The notes under the pieces were generated by a model, which saw only the letters and a program-made list of their open reading frames with translations, was not told the DNA's origin and searched no databases. Both the position numbers and the translations under genes were made by a program. Positions 6,977 to 26,403 of a stretch of 47,164 nucleotides of DNA are shown piece after piece (position 1 is the first letter of the stretch; each line of letters starts with the position of its first letter). This stretch comes from Candidatus Woesearchaeota archaeon (GTDB lineage: Archaea > Nanobdellota > Nanobdellia > Woesearchaeales > JAIPIC01): the NCBI GenBank assembly GCA_021734865.1, contig JAIPIC010000007.1, positions 1 through 47,164 of the forward strand, given 5' to 3'.

Positions 6977-7028
6977 AAAATCAGATAAATTTAAATAATT
7001 AGTTGACTCAAAATCAGATAAATTTATA
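6977..7028 (+). promoter_or_regulatory. Promoter with direct repeat before the CARF gene
   Basis: AAAATCAGATAAATTTA occurs at 6977-6993 and again at 7010-7026, 33 bp apart. The second copy runs into TATA (ATAAATTTATATA), forming a TATA box about 40 bp before ATG 7068. The first copy would lie one to three helical turns upstream. This looks like a promoter with a duplicated binding site, perhaps for the CARF-HTH protein itself. Confidence 0.55.
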
Positions 7029-7067
7029 TATTCAATTAAAAAACAATACTATCAGAGGGTGAAAAAA

Positions 7068-7655
7068 ATGAAAATACTAATATCTACAATCTGGAAAGGA
7101 ACTGCCGTTATTCAGGCTATAAAACTATTCAAACCACAAAAGGTATATTTTATTGTTGATGAACCATTGGAAGAAACAAGAAGGAGTTCTATTGCTATGA
7201 TCAAAGATTTATTCTCAGAGATTGAATATCAACAGGTATCTGCTAAGATTTATGATATTGTTGGCATCTCAAAATCTGTAATTGATATCATTGATAAAGA
7301 GAAAGGAAATAAGATTACAATACATATTTCTGAAGGTCGAAAAACAATGAGCCTAGGATTACTTTTTGGAGCCTATGTCAAAAGGAAATCTGTAGATGCT
7401 GCTTATTATATCACTGAGGAGACAAACACACCAATAAAACTTCCTTTGGTTGAATTGAAACTTTCTTCAAAAAAAGTTATTTTGTTAGAAAAAATAAAAA
7501 AAGGTTTAACAGATATTGAAAAGATTAGTAAACAACTAGATATTAAGCCTGCAACTGTTTATGTTCACATGAAGGAATTAAGAGATGAAGGATTTTTAGA
7601 TGACAAAAATCAAATAACTGAGATGGGGAATATAGTTTTATTACAAAATAATTAA
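7068..7655 (+). CDS. CARF-winged-helix regulator (Csa3-like)
   Basis: The 195-residue protein has an N-terminal CARF domain (MKILISTIWKGTAVIQAI as strand 1 and helix; the ligand motif HISEGRKTMSLGLLFGAYV at about 85-105) and a C-terminal winged helix (KKGLTDIEKISKQLD-x4-TVYVHM, about 143-175). That is the Csa3 architecture: in CRISPR loci such proteins bind cyclic oligoadenylates and switch transcription. No CRISPR array, Cas10 or other cas gene is in this window. ATG 7068 is used because GAGGGTGA precedes it by 5-6 nt; a GTG at 7059 is part of that site. It is the first gene of the ten-gene defence run, and a duplicated promoter site lies upstream, so it probably controls the run in response to a nucleotide signal. 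Confidence 0.75.
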   Translation: MKILISTIWKGTAVIQAIKLFKPQKVYFIVDEPLEETRRSSIAMIKDLFSEIEYQQVSAKIYDIVGISKSVIDIIDKEKGNKITIHISEGRKTMSLGLLFGAYVKRKSVDAAYYITEETNTPIKLPLVELKLSSKKVILLEKIKKGLTDIEKISKQLDIKPATVYVHMKELRDEGFLDDKNQITEMGNIVLLQNN

Positions 7656-7667
7656 GATATACTAAAA

Positions 7668-8837
7668 ATGACTTGCTACAGCCATTCAAGAATCAGCACA
7701 TTTGAACAATGTCGATACAAATACAAGCTTCAATATATCGACAAGATTAAGGTAGATGTGCCAACGACTATTGAATGCTTCATGGGAGACCTTGTCCACA
7801 GAACTCTTGAGAAATTATATGCAGACCTAAAATTCCAAAAACTGAACTCCAAAGAAGATTTATTGAAATTCTATAATAATCTCTGGGATAAAGAATATAC
7901 CTCAGAAATACTAATTGCAAAACAGGATTATTCTGCCGATAACTATAAACAAATGGGCGTAAAGTTTATCTCAGATTATTATGACCAATATAAACCATTT
8001 GACCAGATGACTATTCTTGGACTTGAAACTCAAGATAGGATGACTCTTCCTGATGGAAATCAATGGCACGTCAGGATTGATAAGCTTGCTTGTAAGGATA
8101 AAACCTATTATGTATGTGATTACAAAACTAATAGTCGTATGAAAGATCAAGAAGATGCAGATTCTGACAGACAATTAGCTCTTTATTCAGTATGGGTAAA
8201 AGATAAATTCCCTGATGCAGAGAAAGTGGTGTTACTTTGGCATATGCTTGCATTCAATAAGGAAGTTGTTTCCATAAGGTCAGATGATGAACTTAAGAAG
8301 CTTCAGAATGATACAGTTAAAGCCATTAAGACAATAGAAGCTTGCAATGATTTCCCTCAGAACACAAGTGCACTCTGTAATTATTGTGTTTTCAAATCAA
8401 TATGTCCATCATTCAAGCATGAGCTTGAACTTGAAGAAAAAACAGTTGAAGAATTCAAGGAAGATGATGGAGTAAAACTGGTTGACGAATACGCTCAATT
8501 AGACATTCAAGAAAAAGATATCAAGAAGAAAAAAGAAGATATCAAATCGAGATTAATAGAGTTTTCAAAACAAAAAGAAGTAGATATTGTTTACGGTTCT
8601 AATAAAAAAGCATCTATTAAGTCCTATGATAAGGTTGTATATCCTGAGGATAAAGATGCGTTTTTGAATCTCATTAAAGAAAAAGGCATTTATGAAGAGG
8701 TCTCCATGTTGTGTTATCCTAAATTAACCTCAAGGATAAACAAGAATCAAATTGACCCTGAAATAATTAGTCTAACATCAAAGGAAACTGATTATAGAAT
8801 CTCTGTTTCTAAAAGAAAGAATAGGGAGGATGATTAG
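7668..8837 (+). CDS. RecB/Cas4-like PD-(D/E)XK nuclease
   Basis: The 389-residue protein has the order seen in RecB-type and Cas4 nucleases: YSHSRISTFEQCRYKYKL (the S-x-S-x-L/I-x-x-F-x-x-C start with a cluster cysteine), FMGDLVHRTLEKLY (the G-x-x-x-H motif), VCDYKTN (the D-x-K catalytic strand), QLALYSVWV (the Q-x-x-x-Y motif) and ALCNYCVFKSICP (three cysteines of a likely [4Fe-4S] cluster). The C-terminal 120 residues are charged and helical, with no match known to me. It should be an iron-sulphur DNA exonuclease. It starts 12 bp after the CARF gene and ends 12 bp before the SNF2 helicase gene, consistent with a shared transcript and joint action with that motor. Confidence 0.8.
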   Translation: MTCYSHSRISTFEQCRYKYKLQYIDKIKVDVPTTIECFMGDLVHRTLEKLYADLKFQKLNSKEDLLKFYNNLWDKEYTSEILIAKQDYSADNYKQMGVKFISDYYDQYKPFDQMTILGLETQDRMTLPDGNQWHVRIDKLACKDKTYYVCDYKTNSRMKDQEDADSDRQLALYSVWVKDKFPDAEKVVLLWHMLAFNKEVVSIRSDDELKKLQNDTVKAIKTIEACNDFPQNTSALCNYCVFKSICPSFKHELELEEKTVEEFKEDDGVKLVDEYAQLDIQEKDIKKKKEDIKSRLIEFSKQKEVDIVYGSNKKASIKSYDKVVYPEDKDAFLNLIKEKGIYEEVSMLCYPKLTSRINKNQIDPEIISLTSKETDYRISVSKRKNREDD

Positions 8838-8849
8838 TTCTATCATAAA

Positions 8850-11800
8850 ATGAATCCTAAATTTACTAAAGGTCAAGTTGTAAAGCTTGTAAACTCAGAT
8901 AAAGTAGGTGTAATCTGCGAAGAACCAAAAATAATAGCTGGAGAAGTTCATTATGCAGTTTTTATTGAGGGTTCGCAGAAGACTTATTCTGAACTAAGTT
9001 TGGAACTTGTCGCAAAGACAAGTAATGATTTGACTTCATCAATCAAGAATAATGAGTTTTCTAATCTAAAAGATTTCTTGAGCTATTTGACATATATCAA
9101 GATTGAAAGACCCCTCTCAAATAACCTGTATGCCTTTCTATCATCAAGGACTGAATTCTTGATCCATCAATTTAAGCCTATTTTGAAGTATTTAAATTCT
9201 CCATATCAAAGATTATTGATTGCAGATGAAGTTGGAGTTGGTAAGACAATTGAAGCTGGAGTAATCTATACTGAACTGTTATCAAGACATAGGATGAGAA
9301 ATGCTTTGATTATCTGTCCGTCTGGGCTAAGATTCAAGTGGCAAAAAGAGATGCGAAAACGATTCTCTGAAGAATTTGGAATATTACATTCAAAGGATAT
9401 TAAAGTTTTTTTTAAGAAATTTGAAAGGAATCCTAATGGTGTTAATATCAAAGCAATCGCCTCTATTCAAACTCTAAGGAATGAGGAGATATTGGAAAAC
9501 CTTGAGCGACTTCAAATTCCCTGGGATTTTATATTAGTTGATGAAGCACATCATTTAAGAAATGAAGGCACAAAAAGTAATTCATTGGGAAAAATACTAT
9601 CAAATACTGCTGATAGTATGATACTTATGTCAGCTACTCCATTACAGCTAGGTAATAGGGACTTATTTAATCTTCTGAGAATCATGCTTCCTGAAGAATT
9701 TGACAATTTTGATACATTTGAACAGCAAGTTAAACCTAATGAATTCATAAACATGGCATTGCTTATGCTCTCTAAGAAAGAAGACTGCAATAAGATACTT
9801 GATTCCCTGACACTGGTTGAGGGAACCTCACAAAGAGAAAGATTCCTGTCAAATCCAAATTATGTTTCAGCAAAAACTATACTCCAATCAGAGAGGGTAT
9901 TATCTCGTGATACAATAATTTCACTCCAAAAAAAACTAAGCGAACTAAATGTTCTTTCAAACATCTACACTCGAACAAAGAAAAAAGAGATCAGTGTAGA
10001 TTCACCTATCAGAGAGCCAGTGACCATCAAAGTAGAGTTTACTGAAGCTGAAATGCAGTATTACAAAAGGGTAGCAGACTTGATTATGACACTCAATCCA
10101 GGTGTTCCACCAGGCTTCCTCCTACAAATGCCTCTTAGACAGGTGGCAAGTTGTATTCCTGCATCAATACAATATCTTAATGATATTGCAACATCAGGAA
10201 TTATAGCTTTAGAACAAGAAGAATTAGCTGATGATCTGGATGAGTCAGAGGAGATTTCATTAACTGCTTCAGATATCAATCTGATTAAAGAAACTGTTGA
10301 GTATGGTAAAGAGAATCTTAATTTCCCAGATTCCAAAACTGAGACTTTTCTAAAAACCATAGAAGAGATATTTAAGAATGGCTCAGTTGAAAAAATGATT
10401 ATATTTTCATTCTTCAAAAGAACATTAAAATATCTTGAAAAGGAATTGAAGAAATTAAATATATCAACTGCAAGAATAGATGGAGATGTTCCATTCATTG
10501 AAAGAGAAGAAATATTTGAGAAATTTTCAAAACCAGATGGGTATCAAATCCTTTTATCTTCCGAAGTTGGAGGAGAAGGTCTCGATATGCAATTCTGCAA
10601 TTGCATGATGAATTATGACCTTCCTTGGAATCCAATGAGAGTTGAGCAAAGGATTGGTAGGTTAGATAGGTATGGTCAGAAACATCCAAAAATCCACATA
10701 TACAACTTTTCTGTTGAAGGCACAATAGAATCAAATATCTTCCTTAGACTATGTAATAGGATTGGTGTGTTTGAACAGTATATCGGAGAACTGGAACCTA
10801 TTCTAGGAGAAGTAATGAGGCAATTATCACAGGAGATAATCAATACAGAACTAACTTCAGAACAACAAAAAGAAAAAGCAGATCAAATTGCCTTAGTCAT
10901 TGAGAAAAGAAAGAAAGAACTGGAAATCTTTGACCTTGATAGAAAAAAGTTCTTAGGACAAGACCAATATTTTACTGAAGAAATATCAAATATTAAAAAG
11001 GAAGAAAGGTTTATAACACCATTAGAAATTAAGAACCTTGTTGAGTCATTCATAAAGGACAATTTTCCAAAATCAAAGATTTCTCTTGAGGATAAAAATT
11101 CTCAGATTTATATTGTCAAACCTGATGAAGAATTTAAGGAGTTTGTAAGAGATTATATTTTTGGAGAACAGGAAGTAAGTACTGAATTCTCAGAACACTT
11201 TTTGGAACTGTTATCCCAAGACAGTTTTAAAATTACTTTTGACTATCGTGTTGCAAATGAGAATCCACATATTGAATTTATTACTCTCCGTCATAAACTG
11301 ATTACCTCAATAATTAAGTATTACTCAAAAAAAGAAGTTGACATAGCAACACAGATAGAATATACTGGAAGCTTAGCATCTAATTTAGGCAGTTATGCTT
11401 TTTTTATATACCTTCTTGAAATAAAAAGCTACACAAAATCATTAACTTTTATTCCAGTAGTCATTGATTTAAATACAAACGAAGTTTCAACAGAGTTGTC
11501 AGATAATATCTTCAAAATATTAAAAGAATCAAAAGATTCTTCCGAAAGTCAACCAACAGATATTGACAATGTTCATACAGCAGAAGAAAGAGCAATCCTA
11601 CATGTAGTTGAGCAGAAAAAAAGTAAACAAAAGGAGTTGCTAGAAGTAAATGAGTCTCTGATAAACGATAGGTTAAGCAGTCTAAAACAGACACATGAAT
11701 ATCGTATTCTGAACATAGAAAAAATAATTGAAAGACTTAAGGAATCTCAAAGCGAGAAATCAAACAAAGTTATTCTCATGAAAGAGTCTCAAAAAGTTAA

Positions 11801-11903
11801 TCTTATTAGAAACTATGAGCGAAAAAAAGCAGCACTTGAAGAGGATAAAAAAGTAATTGTCAGCCATGAGTTCATCTGTGGAGGTATCTTGAATGTCAAT
11901 TGA
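8850..11903 (+). CDS. SNF2/RapA-like helicase
   Basis: This 1017-residue SWI2/SNF2 ATPase of the HepA/RapA type shows the motifs in order: DEVGVGKT (126-133), LIICPSGL, ASIQTLR, VDEAHHLRN (about 229-237), MSATPL, IIFSFFKRTLKYLEKEL, IDGDV, LLSSEVGGEGLDMQ and RIGRLDRYGQ. The first 100 residues form a small beta-rich domain, and the last 350 are a helical, charged extension with no known match. SNF2 motors of this kind drive DISARM and similar antiphage systems, translocating along DNA and remodelling bound proteins. The stop overlaps the next gene by 11 bp, so it and the GHKL protein are translationally coupled and probably form one complex. Confidence 0.88.
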   Translation: MNPKFTKGQVVKLVNSDKVGVICEEPKIIAGEVHYAVFIEGSQKTYSELSLELVAKTSNDLTSSIKNNEFSNLKDFLSYLTYIKIERPLSNNLYAFLSSRTEFLIHQFKPILKYLNSPYQRLLIADEVGVGKTIEAGVIYTELLSRHRMRNALIICPSGLRFKWQKEMRKRFSEEFGILHSKDIKVFFKKFERNPNGVNIKAIASIQTLRNEEILENLERLQIPWDFILVDEAHHLRNEGTKSNSLGKILSNTADSMILMSATPLQLGNRDLFNLLRIMLPEEFDNFDTFEQQVKPNEFINMALLMLSKKEDCNKILDSLTLVEGTSQRERFLSNPNYVSAKTILQSERVLSRDTIISLQKKLSELNVLSNIYTRTKKKEISVDSPIREPVTIKVEFTEAEMQYYKRVADLIMTLNPGVPPGFLLQMPLRQVASCIPASIQYLNDIATSGIIALEQEELADDLDESEEISLTASDINLIKETVEYGKENLNFPDSKTETFLKTIEEIFKNGSVEKMIIFSFFKRTLKYLEKELKKLNISTARIDGDVPFIEREEIFEKFSKPDGYQILLSSEVGGEGLDMQFCNCMMNYDLPWNPMRVEQRIGRLDRYGQKHPKIHIYNFSVEGTIESNIFLRLCNRIGVFEQYIGELEPILGEVMRQLSQEIINTELTSEQQKEKADQIALVIEKRKKELEIFDLDRKKFLGQDQYFTEEISNIKKEERFITPLEIKNLVESFIKDNFPKSKISLEDKNSQIYIVKPDEEFKEFVRDYIFGEQEVSTEFSEHFLELLSQDSFKITFDYRVANENPHIEFITLRHKLITSIIKYYSKKEVDIATQIEYTGSLASNLGSYAFFIYLLEIKSYTKSLTFIPVVIDLNTNEVSTELSDNIFKILKESKDSSESQPTDIDNVHTAEERAILHVVEQKKSKQKELLEVNESLINDRLSSLKQTHEYRILNIEKIIERLKESQSEKSNKVILMKESQKVNLIRNYERKKAALEEDKKVIVSHEFICGGILNVN

Positions 11904-14900
11904 TGCAGAAATGCTGATAAGGAAGATTCAGGGAGAATATAGCTCCTATTTCATTGATGGAGACCCTAGTAATGGATTGACAAGAGCAGGTATGGGAGCT
12001 ATTAATCCAACAAAAGCATTACTTGACAATTTCTCAGAATTCAATAGATTTATTGAAGAGATGATTCAGAATGCTGAAGATTCTAGATCCTCTGAGATTA
12101 TATTTTATGTCCATAAAGACCAGATTATAATCGAAAATAATGGAAAACAATTTGATGAACAAGATGTAGAAGCAATCACTATTGTTGGCAATTCAACTAA
12201 ACAATCAAGCGACTCAATTGGAATGTTTGGTTTAGGTTTTAAATCAGTATTTCTCCTATCAGATGCTCCTAGGATTATTTCTGGGAAATTCAATTTCTCT
12301 TTTAATACAAAGACCTATATTTATCCTTATTTAGAGACTCAAAAACCAGAAGGTATAGATTCAAAAAAGACTTATGTTGTTCTACCTTTAAAAAAGAACT
12401 TAATAAGCACAATCTTAGAGTCAATAAGGGGGCATTATAACAAAACTGGAGAGTTAATTCTCTTTCTAAAGAACCTAAGAAGAATACAGATTATAGACTA
12501 CCAATTAGGGGAGCTTACATTTGAAAAGAAGAAAAATGATGAGATCCTCAGTATATATCGGACTCAGGATAATCAAAAGCAGTTAACCAGCAAATGGCTA
12601 ATTAAGAGTAATAATTTCAAGATAAATAAATCATACACAACATCATTAAATGAAGGAGACAGGCGTATTAAGGCAAATAGTATCTGTGTTGATTTGGCAT
12701 TTGAGATAGATAGAGATAATTCATTAGTAGAGAAAAAAGATAAGGCATTATATTCCTTCCTCTCAACCAAATACCTTACTAACTTACCTTTCATTATTAA
12801 TTCAGATTTTCAATTAACTGGAGACAGAGAAAGGATTAAGGAAGATTCAAGTTGGAATAATTTCATCTTTTCTTGTGCGTTTGATTTATTTAAAGAATCA
12901 ATTGACTTTTTCAAGAATCATAAGGATTATAAAAAAACATTTTATGGTATAATCCCAGAATGGAGTGTACGTCCACACGGAAAAGAGATACTGATCAAAT
13001 TCTATAATGACGTATTGGAATATTGTAAATCAAGCGAGATAGTATTGACACATTCCCAAGTGTTTAAGAAAGGAGAGAAGTGCTATTTTGATGATAAAGA
13101 GATAATAGATGTAATCCCAAATGAGATAATACAAAAATTTGAAGGAAGAGAATTTGTCTCTAATGAGATTCCAACAAAGTTCAGACAATTAATCTCAACT
13201 TTTAGTGTTAAATATTTCAACGAAACTAAAATACTATCCTTCCTAAAGGAACATAAGAGTTTCATTAAGGGATTATCTGATGAAAATCTACAAAAACTCT
13301 ATTCAAAGATTTATTCAATATTCCATACAAGGGTACTAGATAGTATCAAGGAATTAGATATATTTAAAACACAGGATTCTGGATTCACAAATTTGGGGGA
13401 GATGCAATCTAACCCATTATTTTTAGCAGATGATTCGGATAATTCTTTTGCCAAAGATAAAAATCTTGAGATTAATTACCTTGATAAGAACCTCACAAAT
13501 AAAATTAAAGCTTCGTCTGATATAAACTTAAAATCCTTTTTTGATGCATTAGATAAGGCAGGTTATGTAAAAACCTTTGACATAAATTCTTATGTTAGCA
13601 ACCATCTAATCCTATTATTTCGAGATCAGAAAAATACTGAAAGGTTTTTTGAAGTAACAAGATTCATCATGAATAATCTTGCAAAACTTGATGATTCTTC
13701 AAAGAGAGCCATACGGGAAGGGATACTAGTAAAGACTTCTCTAGGCAAATGGATTAAGCCCGCAAAAGTCTATTTCTCAAAATCATATGGTGAGGATGAT
13801 GTTTTTGAATTAATCTCAGAACATTTTGATATTGATATTCTGTCTGAGGAATATGTGAAGAAAAAAGACGAGATAAAAGAATGGATTCAATTTTTCAGAG
13901 AAGCTAGAGTCAACTATTATTTTCAAACTGAAGAGATTGATAGATATCATAATGGGATTGATCATGGTTCCAACTCCGTTGATTGTACTATCCTAAGGAA
14001 GATATTCAAGAAACTAAAACAAATTGATGAAAATGAAAGTCATAAAATCGCAACAAAAATATTTGCAAGTATTGACAGCAACTGGGAGCATTATAGAAAT
14101 AAACTAATAACCCATGAATACAAACCAAAAATTGAGATGGGTCAAGAAGTAGGATGTGACTCCATTGAGAATCCTACCCAATTCTTGTCCATGTTAAGAA
14201 ACAGTGACTGGATTCCTAATTCTTCAAAGACATTATTTCGCCCAGATGAAGTATATCTCGATAAAGAAGCAATAAGAGATTACGATAAAAATTTGCCTCG
14301 ATTACAGACAGGGTATTCTTTCAAAAATAAAGAGATGATTGAAGCATTAGGCATCAGAGAGAGATTAGATTCTAATGTTTACATCAAGCACCTCATAAGG
14401 TTGAAAGATTCCAAACAAGATTTTGATCTTCTGACCTTAGAGAAGATATATTCTGAGATTGCATCATCAATAAGCTCAACCCAGACCAAGACAAAAATTG
14501 AAGAGATTAATTCAGTTTTCAATGAGAACTGTCTGATATTTGTACCTAATAAACTTGGAGAATCTTGGAAGAGTCCTGAAGAATGCTTTCTCTATAAAGA
14601 TGATATTGTAAATGGGTATCTGCATGGAATATGCAACCTGTATCAAAATAAAGGAACCTTAAGGTTATTTGAAGATTATTTTCATATTAAGGAAAGACCA
14701 TCTACAGATGATTATCTTCTGATGCTAAAGGAGTTCTCAAAAACAGAACCTACTAAAGCATTAATGACAACCACTTTAAAGATATACAAACAATTAAGTA
14801 GAGAACTTGAGGAATGCGATAAAAATGAAGAAAGTCCACATTGGTTAAAAGGATTTTTAGAAGGCAATTATATAATCACTTCAAAAGGGACTTTTGAAAA

Positions 14901-16488
14901 CAGGAAAGATATCTATGAGAATGACAATCAAGAATTAGCAGAGATATTTCAAGATTATTTGAATTTTATATTTATACCAACTTTAAGCATCAAACCACGG
15001 ATTCAAGCATTATTGGATAGATTGGAACTAAAAACCATAAGTTCTTCTGTGAAACAGAAGCTCATAAAACCATCAATAAAGCATTCAATTTCCATTGAGA
15101 AATATATTCCAATGATTAGTATCATTGAACGAGGATTGGGGGAATATATACTAAAGCATTATAACGGCTCAAACGCAAAGGCGAATATCTCTAAGCTTTC
15201 AGTAAAATTTGTGGATAAAATTAATCTAAAGCTCTCAATCAAGAACTTTGATAAGACAATAGAGACCGACCAATATTATAATCAGGATGATAAATCAATA
15301 TACTTGAAATTTCAAAACAGTCAAGATATTAAAAAATACAAGCAACAAATATCGAGAGGAATTTCCCAAGTCTGCGGAATACCTAGTTTATTTGGGCATG
15401 TTTTCAATATAATCCAGATTTGTGTCCTTGATGGCGATGATATTTTTGAATTCTACAAAAAAGAAGGAATTAATCTTCCAAAAGATGAGTTTGATATTTC
15501 ATTCTTAGATCAGGAGGAAGAGATAATTCATGAGAAGGTAGATGACAAAGATATTGAATTGCCAAAAGCTGAACCTAAAAGGAGTAAGGCAAAAGACAAG
15601 GAGCCAGAACTCAGTACTGAAGAGGAATCTATTGAGGACATTTTTGATTCTGATGTTGATGAACCTGAAGAAGAGGATGCATTTGAAGAACCAGTGGAAG
15701 AGAAGATTAAGGAAAAACAGAAGATAGAAGTTGAAGAAGTCCATAGAGAAAGAGAAGAAGTTGAAAGGACTAAGCAAAAGATTATCCAAGAGATGGATGA
15801 ATTAAGTAGAAAGAAGAAAGAGTTTGTTAAAGAGAAAAGTCAATTTGAAAAGGAAAAGTCCACTCACGAGGAAATTATCAGGCGACAAAGAGAAGAGATT
15901 AAAAGAGGCAGGACGACCAGCCCTTCAAAAGATACTAATTTCTTGGACAAGTTGAAAACTGTTTTCGGAAAGAAATCATCCGCACCTGAGAATCCACAAA
16001 CATATTTTGAAACTGATGAACCTATGTCTTTAGAAGAGAAAGAAGAATTTGAGCAAAAGATTAAACAAGAACTTGAAGAAGAAATAATTAATGTAAGAAG
16101 TGAAAATAAAAGAAGGGGTTATAAGTTAGTTCTTGAATCAATAGGCAAGAATGAAGAGGTGATTCAAGAAGTTAAGAACTTCTATAATGGAAAGTGTCAA
16201 ATCTGTGGATGGAGCTTTAAGGATGTATCAGGCAAAAATTATTGTGAGATTGTCGATATCCTGCCAAAAAGATATGGTGGAGTAAGATTTACAGGAAATA
16301 AACTATGCTTATGTCCTAATCATTCGGCTATGAAAAAACACTCATTTACAGACTATGAGAATATGAAAATTCAAGGTAATACTCTGCATCTAAAAATAGG
16401 TAAAACTGAGCATAAGCTAAGATTCAAGCCAACACATATGGCGATGTTGAAAGTATTGTTCAAGCTAGAGGAAGATAATGACGAATGA
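11893..16488 (+). CDS. Giant GHKL (sacsin-like) ATPase with HNH-like end
   Basis: The 1531-residue protein begins with a GHKL ATP-binding fold of the sacsin/Nov kind: EEMIQNAEDSRS (N box, 55-66), IENNGKQF (80-87), VGNSTK and GMFGLGFKSVF (110-120). About 1100 residues of unassigned, mostly helical sequence follow. Residues about 1205-1345 are acidic and then a charged coiled coil (RKKKEFVKEKSQFEKEKS). The C-terminus (about 1434-1500) is a zinc HNH-like domain: CQICGWSF, then CEIVDILPKRYGG, then NKLCLCPNHSAMKKHSF. The usual first catalytic histidine of HNH is replaced (EIVDI in place of E-x-H-H-I), so cleavage is uncertain. Coupling to SNF2 upstream and PIN downstream (11-bp overlaps on both sides) suggests a helicase-ATPase-nuclease machine. 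Confidence 0.72.
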   Translation: MSIDAEMLIRKIQGEYSSYFIDGDPSNGLTRAGMGAINPTKALLDNFSEFNRFIEEMIQNAEDSRSSEIIFYVHKDQIIIENNGKQFDEQDVEAITIVGNSTKQSSDSIGMFGLGFKSVFLLSDAPRIISGKFNFSFNTKTYIYPYLETQKPEGIDSKKTYVVLPLKKNLISTILESIRGHYNKTGELILFLKNLRRIQIIDYQLGELTFEKKKNDEILSIYRTQDNQKQLTSKWLIKSNNFKINKSYTTSLNEGDRRIKANSICVDLAFEIDRDNSLVEKKDKALYSFLSTKYLTNLPFIINSDFQLTGDRERIKEDSSWNNFIFSCAFDLFKESIDFFKNHKDYKKTFYGIIPEWSVRPHGKEILIKFYNDVLEYCKSSEIVLTHSQVFKKGEKCYFDDKEIIDVIPNEIIQKFEGREFVSNEIPTKFRQLISTFSVKYFNETKILSFLKEHKSFIKGLSDENLQKLYSKIYSIFHTRVLDSIKELDIFKTQDSGFTNLGEMQSNPLFLADDSDNSFAKDKNLEINYLDKNLTNKIKASSDINLKSFFDALDKAGYVKTFDINSYVSNHLILLFRDQKNTERFFEVTRFIMNNLAKLDDSSKRAIREGILVKTSLGKWIKPAKVYFSKSYGEDDVFELISEHFDIDILSEEYVKKKDEIKEWIQFFREARVNYYFQTEEIDRYHNGIDHGSNSVDCTILRKIFKKLKQIDENESHKIATKIFASIDSNWEHYRNKLITHEYKPKIEMGQEVGCDSIENPTQFLSMLRNSDWIPNSSKTLFRPDEVYLDKEAIRDYDKNLPRLQTGYSFKNKEMIEALGIRERLDSNVYIKHLIRLKDSKQDFDLLTLEKIYSEIASSISSTQTKTKIEEINSVFNENCLIFVPNKLGESWKSPEECFLYKDDIVNGYLHGICNLYQNKGTLRLFEDYFHIKERPSTDDYLLMLKEFSKTEPTKALMTTTLKIYKQLSRELEECDKNEESPHWLKGFLEGNYIITSKGTFENRKDIYENDNQELAEIFQDYLNFIFIPTLSIKPRIQALLDRLELKTISSSVKQKLIKPSIKHSISIEKYIPMISIIERGLGEYILKHYNGSNAKANISKLSVKFVDKINLKLSIKNFDKTIETDQYYNQDDKSIYLKFQNSQDIKKYKQQISRGISQVCGIPSLFGHVFNIIQICVLDGDDIFEFYKKEGINLPKDEFDISFLDQEEEIIHEKVDDKDIELPKAEPKRSKAKDKEPELSTEEESIEDIFDSDVDEPEEEDAFEEPVEEKIKEKQKIEVEEVHREREEVERTKQKIIQEMDELSRKKKEFVKEKSQFEKEKSTHEEIIRRQREEIKRGRTTSPSKDTNFLDKLKTVFGKKSSAPENPQTYFETDEPMSLEEKEEFEQKIKQELEEEIINVRSENKRRGYKLVLESIGKNEEVIQEVKNFYNGKCQICGWSFKDVSGKNYCEIVDILPKRYGGVRFTGNKLCLCPNHSAMKKHSFTDYENMKIQGNTLHLKIGKTEHKLRFKPTHMAMLKVLFKLEEDNDE

Positions 16489-17614: not shown

Positions 17615-17648
17615 AAAATGCAAATGATTGAGGTTTAAAAGGTGGAAT

Positions 17649-20063
17649 ATGGCAATCAAAAAAAGTGAATTATACAGTTCATTATGGAAAAGCTGTGATG
17701 AATTAAGAGGAGGGATGGACGCATCGCAGTATAAAGACTATGTACTTGTACTTCTCTTCGTCAAGTATGTTTCTGACAAATATGGCGGAAAGAAGGATGC
17801 CTTGATAGAAGTTCCTGAAGGTGGAAGCTTTAAAGACATGATTGCACTCAAAGGCAAGCCAGACATTGGCGACCAGATAAATGTAATCATAAGAAAACTA
17901 GGCGAAGCAAATAATCTAAAAGATGTTTTCAAGGAAGTTGATTTCAATAACGATGATAAGTTAGGCAAAGGAAAAGAGATGGTAGACAGGCTTTCAAAGC
18001 TTGTTGCAATCTTTGAAAACCCAAGCCTTGATTTCAGTAAGAATACTGCTGAAGGAGATGATATCCTCGGGGATGCTTACGAGTTCCTTATGCGAAAGTT
18101 TGCTACAGAATCAGGTAAAAGCAAAGGTCAATTCTATACACCTGCCGAAGTTTCTCGAGTTCTTGCCAAAGTTGTTGGAATTGCTAATGCAACAAGACAA
18201 GACCAGACTGTTTATGATCCAACCTGCGGTTCAGGTTCGCTTCTTATCAAAGCAGCTGATGAGACAAAGCATGGTATCTCAATCTATGGGCAGGAAAATG
18301 ATGTAGCAACAAGGTCTTTGGCTGTTATGAACATGTGGCTTCATAGGTATCCAATGGCTGAAATATGGAGAGATAACACAATCTCTACACCACACTGGAA
18401 AGAGAAAGATGGAACACTGAAAAGGTTTGATTTCCTTGTAGCTAATCCACCATTCTCAAACAAGAACTGGAGCAGTGGGATAGACCCGAATAATGATGAG
18501 TTCAATAGATTTGAAGGGTTTGGTATACCACCTGCAAAAAATGGTGACTATGCTTTCCTGCTTCATATGTTGAAATCATTGAAAAGCAGAACAGGAAAAG
18601 CAGCAGTGATCCTTCCTCATGGAGTTCTATTCAGAGGCAATGCTGAGGCATCAATCAGACAAAATCTCATAAAAAGAGGCTATATCAAAGGCATAATTGG
18701 ATTGCCACCTAATTTGTTCTATGGTACTGGAATCCCTGCATGTATAATTGTCATCGATAAAGAGAATGCTGAGGATAGGAAAGGCATCTTTATGATTGAT
18801 GCAAGCAAAGGATTCTATAAAGATGGCAACAAGAACAGGTTAAGGTCAAGAGACCTTCACAAGATAGTTGACGTGTTCACGAAAGAACTTGAGATTCCTA
18901 AATATTCTCGGATGGTTCCTATTACTGAGATTACGGATAAGAAAAATGATTATAACCTGAACATCCCACGGTATATTGACAGCCAGGAGGAAGAGGATTT
19001 GCAGGACATTGACGCACATCTTCAAGGAGATATACCCAATAAGGATGTTGATGATCTAGCAAGGTATTGGAAGGTTTACCCAAACCTCAAGAAGAAGCTA
19101 TTTTCTTCAAGCAAGAGAAATAATTATTCAGTCTTAAAAGTAAAGAGCCAGGAGATCAAATCAATGGTCTTCAGTGACCCTGAATTTATTGAGTACTCAA
19201 AAAAGCTGGAAAAAGTGTTCCAGGAATGGAGAGCAAAGAACATAAAGCTATTGAAGTCAATTGAGATTGGTGCAAAACCAAAGGAATTGATATTCAATAT
19301 ATCTGAAGATATCCTTGAGTTATTTTCAAAACTTGACCTGATTGACAAATATGATATCTATCAGCATCTGATGAATTATTGGGCTGAAATCATGCAGGAT
19401 GATGCTTATCTGATTGCTGTCAATGGCTGGAAAATCGAGATTAATGTCATCAAGAACAAGAAAGGTAAAGAGACTGGATGGGATTGTGATTTATTACCCA
19501 AAGAGATTGTCATCAAGAAATATTTCTCTTCAGATCAAGAAGCAATTGATAAATTGAATTCTGAATTGGAGAGCATAAATTCAGAGATGCAGTCGATAGA
19601 TGAAGAAAACTCTGGAGATGATGACTTATTCTCTGATGCAAGGACTGATGCTGGCAAGATTACCAAAAAAGAGATTGGCAACAGGATAAAGGAGATAAAA
19701 GGCAATCCTGAATATGCTGATGAAGCAGAAGCATTGAATGGATATCAAAAGCTTCTAGATAAAGAGAAGGCTTTGAAGGATAAGATCAAGGCATATGATT
19801 CTGAGCTTGACAAAAAACTTCTTTTCAAGTATAAAAGCCTTAAGGAAGATGAGATTAAAGAGCTGGTTGTAGAAAACAAATGGCTTGCATCCTTGCACGA
19901 GCTTGTTAAAGGCGAGATGGAGCGGATATCTCAAAGGCTTGCAGGAAGAATAAAGGAGCTTGCTGAAAGGTATGACATCCCTCTTCCTGAGATTGTCAAG
20001 AAAGTTGATGAATTATCAAAGAAAGTCGATGGGCATCTAGAGAAGATGGGGTTTAGATGGTAG
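17649..20063 (+). CDS. hsdM: Type I restriction-modification methylase subunit
   Basis: HsdM has an N-terminal helical domain (LYSSLWKSCDELRGGMDASQYKDYVL), the SAM motif YDPTCGSGSLLIKA (about 188-201) and catalytic NPPF in VANPPFSNKNW (about 264-267), so it methylates adenine at N6. At 804 residues it is longer than the usual ~500; the extra C-terminal part (from about 470) is helical with coiled coils (SDQEAIDKLNSELESINSEM) and ends in KVDELSKKVDGHLEKMGF. This long form is known among type I methylases. I chose ATG 17649 with AGGTGG 4 nt upstream, instead of a TTG 21 bp earlier. It starts the hsdM-sduA-hsdS-hsdR-hydrolase set. Confidence 0.92.
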   Translation: MAIKKSELYSSLWKSCDELRGGMDASQYKDYVLVLLFVKYVSDKYGGKKDALIEVPEGGSFKDMIALKGKPDIGDQINVIIRKLGEANNLKDVFKEVDFNNDDKLGKGKEMVDRLSKLVAIFENPSLDFSKNTAEGDDILGDAYEFLMRKFATESGKSKGQFYTPAEVSRVLAKVVGIANATRQDQTVYDPTCGSGSLLIKAADETKHGISIYGQENDVATRSLAVMNMWLHRYPMAEIWRDNTISTPHWKEKDGTLKRFDFLVANPPFSNKNWSSGIDPNNDEFNRFEGFGIPPAKNGDYAFLLHMLKSLKSRTGKAAVILPHGVLFRGNAEASIRQNLIKRGYIKGIIGLPPNLFYGTGIPACIIVIDKENAEDRKGIFMIDASKGFYKDGNKNRLRSRDLHKIVDVFTKELEIPKYSRMVPITEITDKKNDYNLNIPRYIDSQEEEDLQDIDAHLQGDIPNKDVDDLARYWKVYPNLKKKLFSSSKRNNYSVLKVKSQEIKSMVFSDPEFIEYSKKLEKVFQEWRAKNIKLLKSIEIGAKPKELIFNISEDILELFSKLDLIDKYDIYQHLMNYWAEIMQDDAYLIAVNGWKIEINVIKNKKGKETGWDCDLLPKEIVIKKYFSSDQEAIDKLNSELESINSEMQSIDEENSGDDDLFSDARTDAGKITKKEIGNRIKEIKGNPEYADEAEALNGYQKLLDKEKALKDKIKAYDSELDKKLLFKYKSLKEDEIKELVVENKWLASLHELVKGEMERISQRLAGRIKELAERYDIPLPEIVKKVDELSKKVDGHLEKMGFRW

Positions 20064-20968
20064 TCAAAGAAGAGAAAAAATCAATGTATAAAAAAATTCG
20101 ACAATTTGATATACGTAAAGGTATTTATCCTATTAGAGTTTCTTTGAGTGTATGGGATGATGGAAATAGTAAACCTTTTGTTGAACTGTATTCTGGTGCA
20201 CCATTAGACAATGGATATAAACACAGTCATTTCAGAATTACAAATAAGCAAGTTTGGGATAAGATTAAACTAATCATTGACAATGAACTTTCAGAAGATT
20301 TGAATGAGGGTCGTAAGCTTTCTGAGAAAGCTTTACAGAAGATTGATGATCATGAATTTGAAATTATGAAGAAAGATAATCAGAAACTTAAACAGAAATT
20401 AAAGGGGTTTAGGCGATATGTAAAAGAAGCAAGAAAACTTAGGCTTCCAGAATACAAAAAAAACCTTGTGGAATTCAAGAAGCAAATTGATAAAAAAGGA
20501 AAAGAAGAAGAACTTCAGACATTCCTTTTAAAAAACTCCTGGCTTTTAGGTTTAGAATACGAAAATGCACAACCACAAAAGATAGGAGTCCGTAAAAGAT
20601 ATGATTTCTATGTAGAGAAATATGATGGATACGCAGATATAGTTGAGATAAAAAAGTCTTCAGAAAACCTCTTCCTTAAGAATGGAAAAATGTCAAAACC
20701 ATTGGCTGATGCTTTGCAACAATTAATAGAATATATTGATGATGCAATCATTGAGGGTGATAGTAAAAGAATCAGCAATAAACTACAAATCAATTTCTTA
20801 AAACCAAAAGGGATTTTGATTATTGGAAAAACAAAAAATGAAGAAATCAAACAAAAGATTGCACAATTGGCATATTATTTCCATAATATTGAAATTTTAA
20901 CATATGATGATTTATATGAAAGAGGGAAGTGTATTGTTTCATCCTTAGAGAAAAATGACAAAAAGTGA
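20057..20968 (+). CDS. Shedu-type nuclease (DUF4263)
   Basis: The 303-residue protein has an N-terminal region of about 140 residues rich in charge, and a C-terminal DUF4263 domain: KEEELQTFLLKNSWLLG, then RKRYDFYVE (Asp) and ADIVEIKKSS (E-x-K at about 195-199), then ADALQQLIEYIDDAI. This is the PD-(D/E)XK nuclease fold of Shedu (SduA), a stand-alone antiphage protein. Here its ATG overlaps the end of hsdM (ATGGTAG) and its end overlaps hsdS by 14 bp, so it is translated with the type I subunits. It may add a second nuclease that senses methylation or DNA ends, or be an independent system that has entered the operon. Confidence 0.82.
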   Translation: MVVKEEKKSMYKKIRQFDIRKGIYPIRVSLSVWDDGNSKPFVELYSGAPLDNGYKHSHFRITNKQVWDKIKLIIDNELSEDLNEGRKLSEKALQKIDDHEFEIMKKDNQKLKQKLKGFRRYVKEARKLRLPEYKKNLVEFKKQIDKKGKEEELQTFLLKNSWLLGLEYENAQPQKIGVRKRYDFYVEKYDGYADIVEIKKSSENLFLKNGKMSKPLADALQQLIEYIDDAIIEGDSKRISNKLQINFLKPKGILIIGKTKNEEIKQKIAQLAYYFHNIEILTYDDLYERGKCIVSSLEKNDKK

Positions 20969-22088
20969 ATGTATACAAACTGAGATAGGAGTGATTCCCA
21001 AGGATTGGGATCTTGATAGTATAAAGAATCATGCTTCAATTACTACTGGAGCAAAGAACACTCAGGATAAAATCGATGATGGTAAATATCCTTTCTTTGT
21101 TAGGTCGCAGAAAGTTGAAAAAATCAATAGTTATTCATTTGATGGAGAAGCTGTTCTTACTGCTGGAGATGGAGTTGGAACAGGTAAGATTTTTCATTAC
21201 ATAAAAGGAAAATTTGATTTTCATCAGAGGGTCTATAAGATAAGTCATTTTGATGAGAAACTGGATGGATACTTCTTTTATCTATATTTTAGCAATAACT
21301 TCTATAATAGAATTATGTCGATGACTGCAAAATCTTCAGTTGATTCTGTACGAATGGAGATGATTGCGGACATGAAGATACCTCTTCCAGATATAACTGA
21401 GCAAATTGCGATAGGCACATCCACGAAAGACATTCAAGAATTAATCGAATCCCTAAACAAGCTCATCGACAAGAAGAAGAAACTAAAGCAGGGAGCAATG
21501 CAACAGCTCTTGACTGGAAAAAAGAGGTTGCCAGGGTTTGAGAATGAATGGACTACAAAATATTTCGATGAAGTATTCTCAATTTCAGCAGGGGGTGATT
21601 TGGATAAAGACGATTTTTCAAAAGAACAAAATGAAATCTGCCAATATCCAATATATTCAAATTCATTATCCAATAAAGGATTATATGGATATTCTTCAAG
21701 TTACCAATATGCATCCAACCACATTACGATAACTGCTCGAGGAACTATTGGTTGGGCAAATTCAAGATATCATAAGTTTTCTGCGATAGGAAGAATTTTA
21801 ATCCTAAAGCCAATTATAAATGTTGATTGTTTTTTTCTAGCTGAGTATATTAATAATAACCTTGTATTTTCAATAGAAAGTACTGGTGTTCCTCAACTGA
21901 CAGCACCTCAAATATCTAAATATAAATTAATATTCCCTTCAGATCCTAAAGAACAATCAGCTATCGCAGAAGTCCTTACTGACATGGACTTAGAGATTGA
22001 GGAACTTGAGAAAAAGAGGGATAAATACCTAAAAATTAAAATAGGCATGATGCAACAGTTATTAACTGGGAGAATCAGGTTAAAATGA
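20955..22088 (+). CDS. hsdS: Type I specificity subunit
   Basis: The 377-residue HsdS has two target-recognition domains, each followed by a conserved helical spacer. The first TRD (about 1-150; IGVIPKDWDLDSI) ends in KKKKLKQGAMQQLLTGKKRLPGF; the second (about 195-340; ENEWTTKYFDEVFSIS) ends in LKIKIGMMQQLLTGRIRLK. The repeated QGAMQQLLTGK and GMMQQLLTGR spacers are the family hallmark, and together they set a bipartite DNA target. The start overlaps the Shedu gene and the stop shares ATGA with hsdR. The two TRDs are not alike, which suggests an asymmetric target. No second hsdS fragment or inversion site is visible. Confidence 0.92.
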   Translation: MTKSECIQTEIGVIPKDWDLDSIKNHASITTGAKNTQDKIDDGKYPFFVRSQKVEKINSYSFDGEAVLTAGDGVGTGKIFHYIKGKFDFHQRVYKISHFDEKLDGYFFYLYFSNNFYNRIMSMTAKSSVDSVRMEMIADMKIPLPDITEQIAIGTSTKDIQELIESLNKLIDKKKKLKQGAMQQLLTGKKRLPGFENEWTTKYFDEVFSISAGGDLDKDDFSKEQNEICQYPIYSNSLSNKGLYGYSSSYQYASNHITITARGTIGWANSRYHKFSAIGRILILKPIINVDCFFLAEYINNNLVFSIESTGVPQLTAPQISKYKLIFPSDPKEQSAIAEVLTDMDLEIEELEKKRDKYLKIKIGMMQQLLTGRIRLK

Positions 22089-25000
22089 ATATCGGACAAA
22101 TCGAAAGAAAAACACAAAACAGGATTGTCAAGCTATTCACTGACATGAAATACAAATATCTCGGCAATTGGGAAGAGCGAGAGAACTCAAATATTGAAGT
22201 TGAGCTATTGGAGAAATACCTTAAAAAAGCTGAGTACTCAGATACATTAATCAAAAAAGCCATCAATGAGCTTAAGAAAGCAATAATTTTCCAGAACAAG
22301 TCACTTTACGACGCTAATAAAGAAGTATATTCGTTATTGCGATACGGAGCAAAGGTTAAGGATAACATTGGAGATAAAAAGCAGACAGTTTATTTGATCA
22401 ATTGGAAACATCCATTGAAGAATGATTTCTATATTGCTGAAGAAGTGACTGTCAAAGGTCAGCATAATAAGAGACCCGATGTTGTACTCTATGTCAATGG
22501 GATTGCAGTTGGTGTCTTAGAGCTTAAGAGAAGCATTGTTTCTATCTCTGAAGGGATAAGGCAGAACCTTGACAATCAAAAAGAGATATTCATAAGAGGT
22601 TTTTTCTCGACAATACAGCTTGTGATGGCAGGCAATGATTCTGAAGGTCTTAAATATGCTACAATAGAAACTCCTGAAAAATATTATTTGACTTGGCAGG
22701 AAGAGTCTGATATCAAGAAAAAGCTTGACAGACATCTCACTCAGGTATGCAGTAGGGAAAGGCTAATCGAGATAATCCATGATTTCATTGTGTTTGATTC
22801 AGGAATAAAAAAGATTTGCAGGCATAACCAATACTTTGGTGTGAAAGCAGCACAAAGGCATGTCAAGAAGAAAGAAGGCGGTATTATCTGGCATACGCAA
22901 GGTAGCGGAAAAAGCATGATAATGGTCTGGCTTGCCAAATGGATTAAGGAGAATATTGACGAATCCAGAGTCCTGATCATTACAGACAGGGAAGAGTTGG
23001 ATGGACAGATTGAGAAAGTATTCTTTGGTGTAGAAGAAGAAATCTACAGGACAAAGAGCGGTAAAGACTTGATAAAACAATTAAACAATGCTGCTCCTTG
23101 GCTAATATGCTCATTGATACATAAATTCAAGAACAATACTGAGACAGATTATGAAAAATATATGGAAGAGCTTAAGAGCAGTCTTCCTGATAATTTTAAG
23201 GCTAAAGGCAATATCTTTGTCTTTGTTGATGAATGCCACAGAACACAGTCTGGTAAACTCCATGATGCAATGGAAGAGATTTTACCGAATGCAATCTCCA
23301 TAGGTTATACTGGGACTCCTTTGCTGAAGAAAGACAAGAAAAGAAGCATTGAAATCTTTGGCAGGTATATCCACACCTACAAATACGACGAAGCTGTAGC
23401 TGATAAAGTTGTTCTTGACTTGCAGTATGAAGCAAGAGAGATTGACCAGAAACTCAGTTCTCAGGATAAGGTTGACCAATGGTTTGAGGCTAAAACAAGA
23501 GGCTTGACTGATTTTGCTAAAGCTGAGCTTAAAAAAAAATGGGGAACAATGCAAAAAGTCCTTAGTTCTCAATCCAGACTTAAAGTTATTGTCGCTGATA
23601 TCATGCTTGATATGGAGACAAAAGACAGGCTTCAAAGCGGTAGAGGAAACGCCTTGCTAATAGCAGGGAGCATATATGAAGCCTGTAAATACTATGAATT
23701 ATTCCAAAAACATGGATTAAAGAGATGTGCAATAGTCACTTCATATTCAGGAGATGTTAATTCTATTAAGGGCGAGACTTCTGACCCTGAAGAAGAAACT
23801 GAAAACCTTCAGAAATATGAGATTTACCAGCAGATGCTTAAGCATTATGAAGAGCTATATCCTGACATAAAGACAAAAGGTTTTGAAGAAGTCATAAAAG
23901 AGAAATTTATAAAAGAGCCAGGGCAGATGAAGCTTTTGATTGTTGTTAATAAGCTTCTTACAGGATTTGATGCCCCTCCTGCAACATACCTTTACATTGA
24001 CCAAAGTATGCAGGATCATGGCTTGTTCCAAGCAATATGCAGGGTCAATCGGCTTGATGGTGAGGATAAGGAATATGGTTTTGTTATAGACTATAAAGAC
24101 TTATTCAAGAGCCTCAATAAGGCTGTTACAGATTATACTTCTGAAGCATTTGACGGTTTTGATAAGGATGATGTCCTTGGATTGCTTAAGGACAGGATGA
24201 ATACAGGAAAAGAAAACTTAGATAATGCTCTTGAAAGTGTCAAGGCATTATGCGAACCTGTAAAACCTCCAAAAGGGTCAGTTGAATTCATAGAATATTT
24301 TTGTGGTAATACTGATAAGCCAGATGACTTGAAGAATAACGAACAGAGAAGAATTGTGTTATACAAACTGACTTCTAAATTGCTAAGAGCTTATGCAAAT
24401 CTTGCGAATGAGATGTCTGAAGCAGGATACACCAAAAAAGAAGCTGAGGACATTAAGAAGGAAGTACAATACTATGAGAATATAAGAACAGAGATTAAGC
24501 TTGCAAGCGGAGATTATATTGATCTCAAGGCTTATGAGCCAGCGATGAGACATTTAATTGATTCATATATCTCTGCTGAAGACAGCAAGACGATTTCAGC
24601 TTTTGAAAATCTTACGTTAATTGATTTGATAGTCTCAAATGGCGAAGATGCTTTTAATAGTCTTCCAGCAAATATCCGAAAGAACAAAGATGCGGTTGCA
24701 GAAGTGATAGAAAATAATGTCCGTAGATTGATTATTGAAGAGCGACCAACAAACCCTAAATATTTTGAGAAGATGTCTGTTCTTCTGGATGATCTTATCA
24801 GGGAAAGAAAACAGAAAGCAATTGATTATGCAAGATATCTAAAGAAAATAGTAGAGCTAGTCAAACAGGTAAAAAGTATCTCCAGTCCTGTTGAGTATCC
24901 GAAAACAATCAAGTCAAAAGCTCAAAAAGCATTCTATGATAATTTTGGGAACAATGAAAATCTTGCAGTAAAAATACATCAAAACATAATAAACAGTAAA

Positions 25001-25141
25001 CCTGATGGATGGAGAGGAACATATCTCAAAAAGAAACAAGTAAGACTAGTGATAAAAGAAGCAATGGCAGAATATGGAATAAATGAATCTGAAAATGTTG
25101 AAAGGGCATTAGACCTTGCTGTTGAACAAGATGAATACTAA
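22085..25141 (+). CDS. hsdR: Type I restriction subunit
   Basis: The 1018-residue HsdR combines an N-terminal nuclease (RPDVVLYVNGI with Asp, then VLELKRS at about 140-147, E-x-K) and a superfamily 2 translocase: HTQGSGKSMIM (Walker A, about 269-279), RVLIITDREELDGQI, FVDECHRTQSG (motif II), IGYTGTPL (motif III) and ICRVNRLDGEDKEYGF (motif VI). The C-terminal helical domain binds the methylase. Length and motif set are normal, so restriction is probably active. It joins hsdS with a 4-bp ATGA overlap and ends inside the start of the metallohydrolase gene. Confidence 0.94.
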   Translation: MNIGQIERKTQNRIVKLFTDMKYKYLGNWEERENSNIEVELLEKYLKKAEYSDTLIKKAINELKKAIIFQNKSLYDANKEVYSLLRYGAKVKDNIGDKKQTVYLINWKHPLKNDFYIAEEVTVKGQHNKRPDVVLYVNGIAVGVLELKRSIVSISEGIRQNLDNQKEIFIRGFFSTIQLVMAGNDSEGLKYATIETPEKYYLTWQEESDIKKKLDRHLTQVCSRERLIEIIHDFIVFDSGIKKICRHNQYFGVKAAQRHVKKKEGGIIWHTQGSGKSMIMVWLAKWIKENIDESRVLIITDREELDGQIEKVFFGVEEEIYRTKSGKDLIKQLNNAAPWLICSLIHKFKNNTETDYEKYMEELKSSLPDNFKAKGNIFVFVDECHRTQSGKLHDAMEEILPNAISIGYTGTPLLKKDKKRSIEIFGRYIHTYKYDEAVADKVVLDLQYEAREIDQKLSSQDKVDQWFEAKTRGLTDFAKAELKKKWGTMQKVLSSQSRLKVIVADIMLDMETKDRLQSGRGNALLIAGSIYEACKYYELFQKHGLKRCAIVTSYSGDVNSIKGETSDPEEETENLQKYEIYQQMLKHYEELYPDIKTKGFEEVIKEKFIKEPGQMKLLIVVNKLLTGFDAPPATYLYIDQSMQDHGLFQAICRVNRLDGEDKEYGFVIDYKDLFKSLNKAVTDYTSEAFDGFDKDDVLGLLKDRMNTGKENLDNALESVKALCEPVKPPKGSVEFIEYFCGNTDKPDDLKNNEQRRIVLYKLTSKLLRAYANLANEMSEAGYTKKEAEDIKKEVQYYENIRTEIKLASGDYIDLKAYEPAMRHLIDSYISAEDSKTISAFENLTLIDLIVSNGEDAFNSLPANIRKNKDAVAEVIENNVRRLIIEERPTNPKYFEKMSVLLDDLIRERKQKAIDYARYLKKIVELVKQVKSISSPVEYPKTIKSKAQKAFYDNFGNNENLAVKIHQNIINSKPDGWRGTYLKKKQVRLVIKEAMAEYGINESENVERALDLAVEQDEY

Positions 25142-25856
25142 AAAAAAAGAGATAGATGTTTACAGTCTCAAAGTTGACACTGTAAAGAAAGATATAAAGA
25201 ACATTCACTTAGGTGTCTATCCTCCTGACGGAAGAGTAAGAGTAGCAGCACCAAATAAAACAACTGATGATTCGATAAGGTTATTGGTAAGTTCAAAGAT
25301 TCCATGGATAAAGAAACAAAGAAAAAAGTTTGAAAAACAGGAAAGACAGTCCAAGAGAGAATATGTTTCAGGAGAAAGCCATTATTTTCTAGGTAATCGA
25401 TACTTACTTAATGTAATTGAGACTGATTCTAAGCCAAGGATTGAATTAAAAAGAAAGACGAGGATTGATCTGTATATTCAACCTCATCTGAAAATTGAAC
25501 AAAGAGCCAAAGTATTTGATGAATTCTATCGAGAGGAATTAAAAAAGAACATCCCTCAGGTATTAAAAAAGATTCAAAAGAAAATCATGGTAGAAGTATC
25601 CGATATAAGAATAAAAAAGATGAAGACAAAGTGGGGGACATGCAACCCAAAGGCTAAGAGAATATGGCTAAACCTTGAACTTGCTAAAAAGCCAATACAC
25701 TGCCTTGAATATGTCCTGATTCACGAAATAGTTCATCTTACCGAGAAAAACCACACAGACAAGTTCTTTTATCTTATGAAATCTATTCTTCCTCAATGGG
25801 AATTGTATAAAGCCGAATTAAATTCAGGCATCTTAGGATATTCTTCTTGGAATTAA
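25131..25856 (+). CDS. YgjP/SprT-like metal-dependent hydrolase (DUF45)
   Basis: The 241-residue protein carries the zinc motif LIHEIVHLTEKNHTDKF (HExxH at about 199-203, third ligand His in the NHTDKF segment) after KMKTKWGTCNPKAKRIWLN, the signature of the YgjP/DUF45 family. These proteins accompany hsdR genes in many type I loci; the substrate is not known, but a proteolytic role in controlling the restriction enzyme has been proposed. ATG 25131 overlaps the hsdR stop (ATGAATACTAA); a TTG 15 bp earlier is less likely. It ends the ten-gene run; the second leader repeat follows within 20 bp. Confidence 0.85.
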   Translation: MNTKKKEIDVYSLKVDTVKKDIKNIHLGVYPPDGRVRVAAPNKTTDDSIRLLVSSKIPWIKKQRKKFEKQERQSKREYVSGESHYFLGNRYLLNVIETDSKPRIELKRKTRIDLYIQPHLKIEQRAKVFDEFYREELKKNIPQVLKKIQKKIMVEVSDIRIKKMKTKWGTCNPKAKRIWLNLELAKKPIHCLEYVLIHEIVHLTEKNHTDKFFYLMKSILPQWELYKAELNSGILGYSSWN

Positions 25857-25946: not shown

Positions 25947-26090
25947 ATGAACTGCAAGATATGTGACAAAATTCTCCAGAACGGTGAGGCGATTATGTGC
26001 AGTTCCTGCGTTGGCTTCATCGAATGGAAATATGGTAGCCTTGAGAAATTCGAAAAAATCCGAAACGGGGAGGTAAAGAAAGATGAATAA
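25947..26090 (+). CDS. 47-residue zinc-ribbon protein
   Basis: The peptide MNCKICDKILQNGEAIMCSS continues CVGFIEWKYGS and ends VKKDE. Two pairs, C-x2-C at 3-6 and C-x2-C at 18-21, form a probable one-zinc ribbon. ATG 25947 follows AGGGTGA by 4-5 nt; a GTG at 25938 in the same frame is an alternative start. The last codons overlap the pilin gene (GATGAATAA), so translation is coupled to the transfer genes. It may be a small regulator or assembly factor of the pilus operon; no family name can be given. Confidence 0.65.
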   Translation: MNCKICDKILQNGEAIMCSSCVGFIEWKYGSLEKFEKIRNGEVKKDE

Positions 26091-26403
26091 AGCACTATTG
26101 GTGATGCTCTTGCTGTTGTCTTTGCCTATGGTTCTAGCTGTTGATTTTGATGAGGACATCAGCGAAGAAGACAAAGCAACTTTTGACAACATTCTTGAGC
26201 CTGTGATGAAGATCTATAACTTCATCAAGTATTCAGCAACTGTCCTTGCTGTAGTCTTTTTGGTCTTTGCTGGTGTGACCTTTATCATGTCTGGCAACGA
26301 TCAGGCAAAAAGAGAATCTGCAAAGATGATGGGGACATACATCGTGATTGGACTGATTATAATCTGGGTTGCTCCATTGATAGTCCAATACTTGGTAGGA
26401 TGA
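26083..26403 (+). CDS. VirB2/TrbC-like conjugative pilin
   Basis: The 106-residue protein has a signal peptide (MNKALLVMLLLLSLPMVLAV, cleavage probably after about residue 19-20), a short acidic stretch, and two transmembrane helices (about 47-67 and 82-104) separated by a basic loop SGNDQAKRESAKMM. This is the layout of VirB2/TrbC pilins and of the archaeal DNA-transfer pilins (CedA1/TedC type), which pack as paired helices in the conjugative pilus. It is followed by a large polytopic protein in a 4-bp overlap and later a VirB4 ATPase, the minimal set of archaeal conjugation-like machines. Confidence 0.72.
   Translation: MNKALLVMLLLLSLPMVLAVDFDEDISEEDKATFDNILEPVMKIYNFIKYSATVLAVVFLVFAGVTFIMSGNDQAKRESAKMMGTYIVIGLIIIWVAPLIVQYLVG

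Follow-up and report, generated by a model that had tools for sequence, protein, structure and literature searches.

A ten-gene archaeal run led by a CARF regulator joins a type I restriction operon to a recurrent SNF2-GHKL gene pair

Tiamat has been described as a defence system of one gene. In RRDM (RptR-RMS-DarTG-M48), a type I system with embedded DarTG2 is preceded by direct repeats to which a repressor binds, and an M48 peptidase is encoded downstream (PMC12255303). Here we describe a run of ten genes that has likenesses to both. It lies in a stretch of 47,164 nucleotides (the window; contig C90) from a genome of Candidatus Woesearchaeota (2.0 Mb, 87% complete). A TFIIB gene marks the window as archaeal. 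The original prediction had claimed ten tightly spaced genes in this order on one strand, and ten same-strand ORFs at 7059-25856 bear this out. Nearly all the domain names given at that time hold in domain searches, the PIN assignment being weaker (Table 1).

Table 1. Features of the ten-gene run and of its upstream region (positions in the window).
Feature	Position	Strand	Basis or remark
Two perfect 17-bp direct repeats, AAAATCAGATAAATTTA, 33 bp apart	6977-6993, 7010-7026	+	Candidate operator/promoter of the run
TATA-like box, TTTATATA	7023-7030	+	Touched by the second 17-bp repeat
CARF3/Csa3-like CARF plus winged-HTH regulator, 195 aa, without effector domain	7068-7655	+	PADLOC CARF3, 9.5e-60; TIGR01884, 2.9e-18
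RecB/Cas4-like PD-(D/E)XK nuclease	7668-8837	+	PDDEXK_1, 5e-26; RIDK, DYKT and QLALY motifs and C-x2-C-x5-C present
RapA/DrmD-like SNF2 translocase, motifs intact, without fused HEPN or PLD	8850-11903	+	DrmD-like match, 2e-146
Tiamat/sacsin-like GHKL ATPase, 1531 aa, C-terminal HNH-fold zinc domain	11893-16488	+	TmtA/sacsin match, 1e-104
Helical N-terminus with likely C-terminal PIN-like domain	16478-17614	+	Conserved residues, predicted structure
HsdM, type I methyltransferase	17649-20063	+	Domain searches
Shedu nuclease between hsdM and hsdS	20057-20968	+	SduA_C, PF14082, 1.1e-17
HsdS specificity subunit	20955-22088	+	Methylase_S
HsdR restriction/translocase subunit	22085-25141	+	Domain searches
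YgjP/SprT-like zinc metallopeptidase, HEIVH	25131-25856	+	YgjP, 7e-60

With the best starts (CARF ATG 7068, HsdM ATG 17649, YgjP ATG 25131), the nine junctions measure, in order, +12, +12, -11, -11, +34, -7, -14, -4 and -11 bp. A 247-kb sample of this genome served as background: 61% of its co-directional gaps were at most 35 bp, and tight runs other than this one reached six genes at most. A series of nine junctions this tight has a chance of 0.61^9 = 0.012 for co-directional pairs, and of 0.40^9 = 0.0003 when all neighbours are taken. Tightly spaced genes being common here, what sets the run apart is its length, not its kind, and tightness alone is weak evidence for one functional unit. A single transcript over the run is plausible. 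On one side, the run is flanked by a tyrosine integrase gene (1393-2232), and on the other by T4SS-pilin and TraC/VirB4-like genes (26083-28436, 30715-33684); an archaeal conjugative element may carry the run. Further along (43880-46403), a nucleotidyltransferase gene adjoins one for a Schlafen-group-3 helicase, possibly another defence pair.

The SNF2 and GHKL genes form a pair that recurs widely. We searched 85,000 genomes and IMG/VR with a SNF2 profile built from three proteins; the resulting counts represent a sample rather than a census. A GHKL gene was found directly behind the SNF2 gene in at least 55 loci of archaea and bacteria, mostly at a distance of -4 to +20 bp. At least about 20 pair loci had no other co-directional neighbour larger than 150 aa within 200 bp, some of these loci stopping at contig ends. 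In searches of two archaeal phyla, a GHKL gene followed every SNF2 match with enough contig, and a relative from the window's own order (L168) has the same arrangement. The closest relatives (L008 and L184; SNF2 60% identical) are bare SNF2-GHKL pairs. A search for the pair in E. coli was unsuccessful; the match examined represents another SNF2 branch, located beside DUF4391 and a type III system.

The ATPase partner of this SNF2 family is exchanged. Among the matches listed, 66 genomic SNF2 homologues were assessable, and 62 of them had one or the other of two partners: a GHKL neighbour in 39 cases, and an HSP70/actin-fold ATPase instead in 23. The latter carries a DFGT[HS]xTK motif, with one archaeal example (L009), and the three such partners tested matched no PADLOC or named NCBIfam family. 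SNF2 genes with an uncatalogued HSP70/actin-fold ATPase were seen at L009, L015, L020, L021, L029, L038 and others, in bacteria of several phyla and in one archaeon of the Methanosarcinaceae. In a quick tree with long branches, the SNF2 proteins split by partner type, GHKL versus HSP70-fold. Moreover, SNF2 and GHKL distances correlate (Mantel r 0.54, p 0.0005). This pattern bears on the reading that the locus is an ordinary defence island, in which a stand-alone Tiamat, an orphan SNF2, a type I system and Shedu are packed compactly and SNF2 and GHKL form no functional unit. Compact packing is indeed usual in this genome, as seen above, and GHKL relatives lacking SNF2 exist (L004, L006, L007). 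However, conservation of the pair across phyla, the partner-specific SNF2 clades and the correlated divergence speak against such an island, which we regard as unlikely. Our search of the literature, which left many subscription-journal papers outside, returned no description of a SNF2-GHKL or SNF2-HSP70 pair. SNF2-GHKL thus is a widespread two-gene pair, apparently unnamed and provisionally the new part of the locus.

The right half of the run (17649-25856) has the order hsdM-[Shedu]-hsdS-hsdR-YgjP. Its HsdM is about 58% identical to plasmid-borne HsdM of Vibrio, Citrobacter and E. coli. This half matches plasmid type I operons, in which the internal cargo varies, including a DUF262 pair, TrlF with an RNA-binding protein, XisH/XisI/Uma2, and hypothetical genes. 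Within the stretch read, a SprT/YgjP-type peptidase gene ends two of four plasmid type I operons, and such a peptidase is a frequent last gene of the type I layout with embedded cargo. A search of viral contigs with HsdM gave no useful match, and the search for a close Shedu relative in the phylum gave one weak match. On an IMG/VR contig (L092:2-16289), SNF2-GHKL is immediately preceded by hsdM, hsdS, hsdR, YgjP and an Mrr-like gene, a case in which the two modules have come together independently.

The left half (7068-17614) comprises the genes for the CARF-wHTH regulator, the RecB-like nuclease, the RapA/DrmD-like SNF2, the Tiamat/sacsin-like GHKL protein and the PIN-like protein. GC content is 32.0% in the left and 35.6% in the right half, with 36.8% in the genome sample. 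Neither the neighbour analysis of SNF2 homologues nor the plasmid type I comparisons revealed a second locus with the full ten-gene set. The locus is composite: one block is a type I restriction operon of a known kind, and the block joined to it has a SNF2-GHKL core. The ten genes had been put forward as one induced programme matching no named system. The whole set indeed matches none, but it is not one recurring system, and the hsd genes represent a separate, known type I layout. An integrated programme, in which CARF, on sensing a cyclic oligonucleotide, would induce both the helicase machine and the type I system, would account for the single strand, the nine tight junctions and the one upstream promoter region with unique repeats. 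We consider this quite improbable nonetheless, given that no other locus with the set was found, that the halves differ in GC and recurrence, and that the hsd half occurs elsewhere as a complete unit by itself.

Control by CARF of the promoter ahead of the run, as envisaged in the original prediction, gains support from the direct repeat upstream of the CARF gene. When up to one mismatch was allowed, the 17-bp repeat occurred at its two sites only in the 2.0-Mb genome, and no further copies were found elsewhere. The paired repeats fit CARF autoregulation. Cas10 was not found in this 87% complete genome (PF22335 absent). Among 72,556 plasmids, a single CARF homologue was detected. It is encoded on pMETHO01 (L005), about 7 kb from the plasmid's own SNF2-GHKL pair, which brings the co-occurrence of CARF, SNF2 and GHKL to two loci in all. 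This plasmid is also the sole recurrence of CARF and a RecB domain with the pair, its CARF being divergent. Only weak, distant repeat pairs were found in its csa3 promoter.

The remaining two genes of the left block have lives apart from the pair. Stand-alone relatives of the RecB-like nuclease (37-40% identity) occupy DNA-repair-type contexts, for which reason we rejected RecB as a dedicated member of the pair; a search of plasmids gave no useful match. The PIN assignment had no Pfam support. Residues D193, D336 and D356/D358 are conserved in three homologues, and the predicted structure (model pLDDT only 62) has the PIN protein PAE0151 as best PDB match (2fe1, E 0.025, prob 1.00). Conserved residues and this modest model make a PIN domain likely. 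Searches of plasmids and viral contigs with the PIN-like protein gave no useful match. In genomes where the family was found, it lies elsewhere, apart from the pair, and PIN was rejected as a dedicated member as well, its relatives adjoining a CRISPR array or lying on an unrelated contig. The same genome harbors a complete type V-A CRISPR locus (L207:2809-10307, contig C92) with Cas12a (1277 aa, Cpf1 Pfam domains), Cas4-, Cas1- and Cas2-like ORFs and an 8-repeat array. A paralogue of the PIN-like protein (50% identical) is encoded about 130 bp past the last repeat of this array. Thus, when the CARF/RecB/SNF2/GHKL/PIN block was searched for as a recurring unit, SNF2-GHKL proved widespread, but CARF, RecB and PIN are not fixed members.

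Effector parts are exchanged as well. Among the matches listed, 31 of 54 GHKL-type SNF2 proteins carry an N-terminal RNxWAH motif (HEPN_Swt1-type); these counts refer to the sequence motif, and a Pfam check in four of the proteins returned HEPN_Swt1 in all four. A PLDc_2 domain is present in 2/54, distinct from the four tested for HEPN. PLD as the general fused effector was rejected, most SNF2 extensions being HEPN_Swt1. The SNF2 protein in the window has neither, and RecB and PIN are encoded as separate genes on either side of the pair. The C-terminus of the GHKL protein adopts an HNH fold of the TagI/EcoKMcrA type (best PDB match TagI, 6ghs; E 1.4e-4, prob 1.00), in which the expected catalytic His of the first HNH motif is replaced by Asp. 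This His is likewise absent from 49 of the 52 paired GHKL proteins among the matches listed and kept in three. Because the catalytic residue is usually missing, the HNH fold probably binds DNA rather than cuts it, and HNH as main cutter was rejected. The bare pairs L008 and L184, with no recognised nuclease, are hard to reconcile with a separate nuclease being indispensable, unless one resides in the long middle region of GHKL. UvrD-RecB fusions lie near the pair at L005 and L185, and in two archaeal genomes (L185, L186) genes for Mre11-like and Rad50-like proteins immediately precede SNF2-GHKL. That the pair is a RapA-like machine for DNA repair or transcription recycling rather than an antiviral one, these archaeal neighbours reflecting DNA-end processing, would agree also with RapA providing the closest solved structures for the SNF2 protein, but it is highly improbable in view of the patchy distribution, the copies on plasmids and viral contigs, the fused HEPN RNases and neighbours including PglZ, type I systems, ABC-three-component systems and Hachiman.

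Taken together, we favour, with moderate confidence, a model in which a CARF-regulated SNF2-GHKL defence block is followed by an independent type I system carrying Shedu and YgjP. The relatives and neighbours of the SNF2-GHKL pair suggest its role in defence. The RapA-like SNF2 protein would track along invading DNA, while the GHKL protein may serve as an ATP-gated dimeric clamp, acting as recognition or licensing switch. The exchangeable nuclease would be the effector: elsewhere the HEPN RNase or PLD fused to SNF2, and in the window presumably the RecB-like DNase and the PIN RNase whose genes flank the pair. By binding the paired repeats, the CARF-wHTH protein probably keeps its own promoter repressed until a nucleotide signal relieves it; the overlap of a repeat with the TATA-like box and the parallel with RptR suggest such repression. 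The type I system directly behind the left block, with Shedu as embedded back-up, may be co-transcribed by read-through. More tentatively, this could extend to a widespread family of antiviral systems that combine one RapA/DrmD-like SNF2 with a GHKL (HSP90-type) or HSP70/actin-type ATPase switch and interchangeable nucleases, here under a CARF regulator untied to type III CRISPR; we see this as possible rather than probable. If the pair defends, a branch of Tiamat-like proteins would turn out to be one of two partners in a two-gene machine, and many orphan genes labelled 'helicase-related' or 'hypothetical' in many phyla would share a logic of motor, chaperone-type ATPase and swappable nuclease. 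The exchange of HSP90-type and HSP70-type partners on the same motor provides a clean, testable prediction. A CARF protein with a genome-unique candidate operator and no Cas10 detected raises the question of which signal CARF reads outside type III CRISPR.

In comparison with known systems, the locus differs from type III CRISPR cOA signalling in that no Cas10 was detected in the 87% complete genome. Like RRDM, the run opens with a regulator gene, has direct repeats in its promoter region and combines a type I system, which holds an embedded defence gene, with a metallopeptidase (PMC12255303). Unlike RRDM, its cargo is Shedu between hsdM and hsdS, its first regulator is CARF-wHTH, and RecB, SNF2, GHKL and PIN are encoded between regulator and hsdM, so that PIN rather than RptR directly precedes hsdM. 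Defence genes inside a type I operon are shared with TgvAB (PMC11411939), whose cargo is GmrSD-like. The SduA_C nuclease domain is that of Shedu (SduA), but here the gene is embedded in a type I operon. The SNF2 protein belongs to the same family as DISARM DrmD, BREX BrxHII and RapA-type proteins and is of similar length. However, it scores below the curated DrmD cut-off (NF038317, 348.7 versus 610 bits), drmA, drmB and drmC are absent among the ten genes, and the run has no other BREX genes. The GHKL protein matches PADLOC TmtA (1e-104, residues 47-870), as do other paired GHKL proteins. Unlike Tiamat, it is paired with SNF2, and the adjacency of SNF2 in at least 55 loci suggests that the Tiamat-like branch found here is not a single-gene system.
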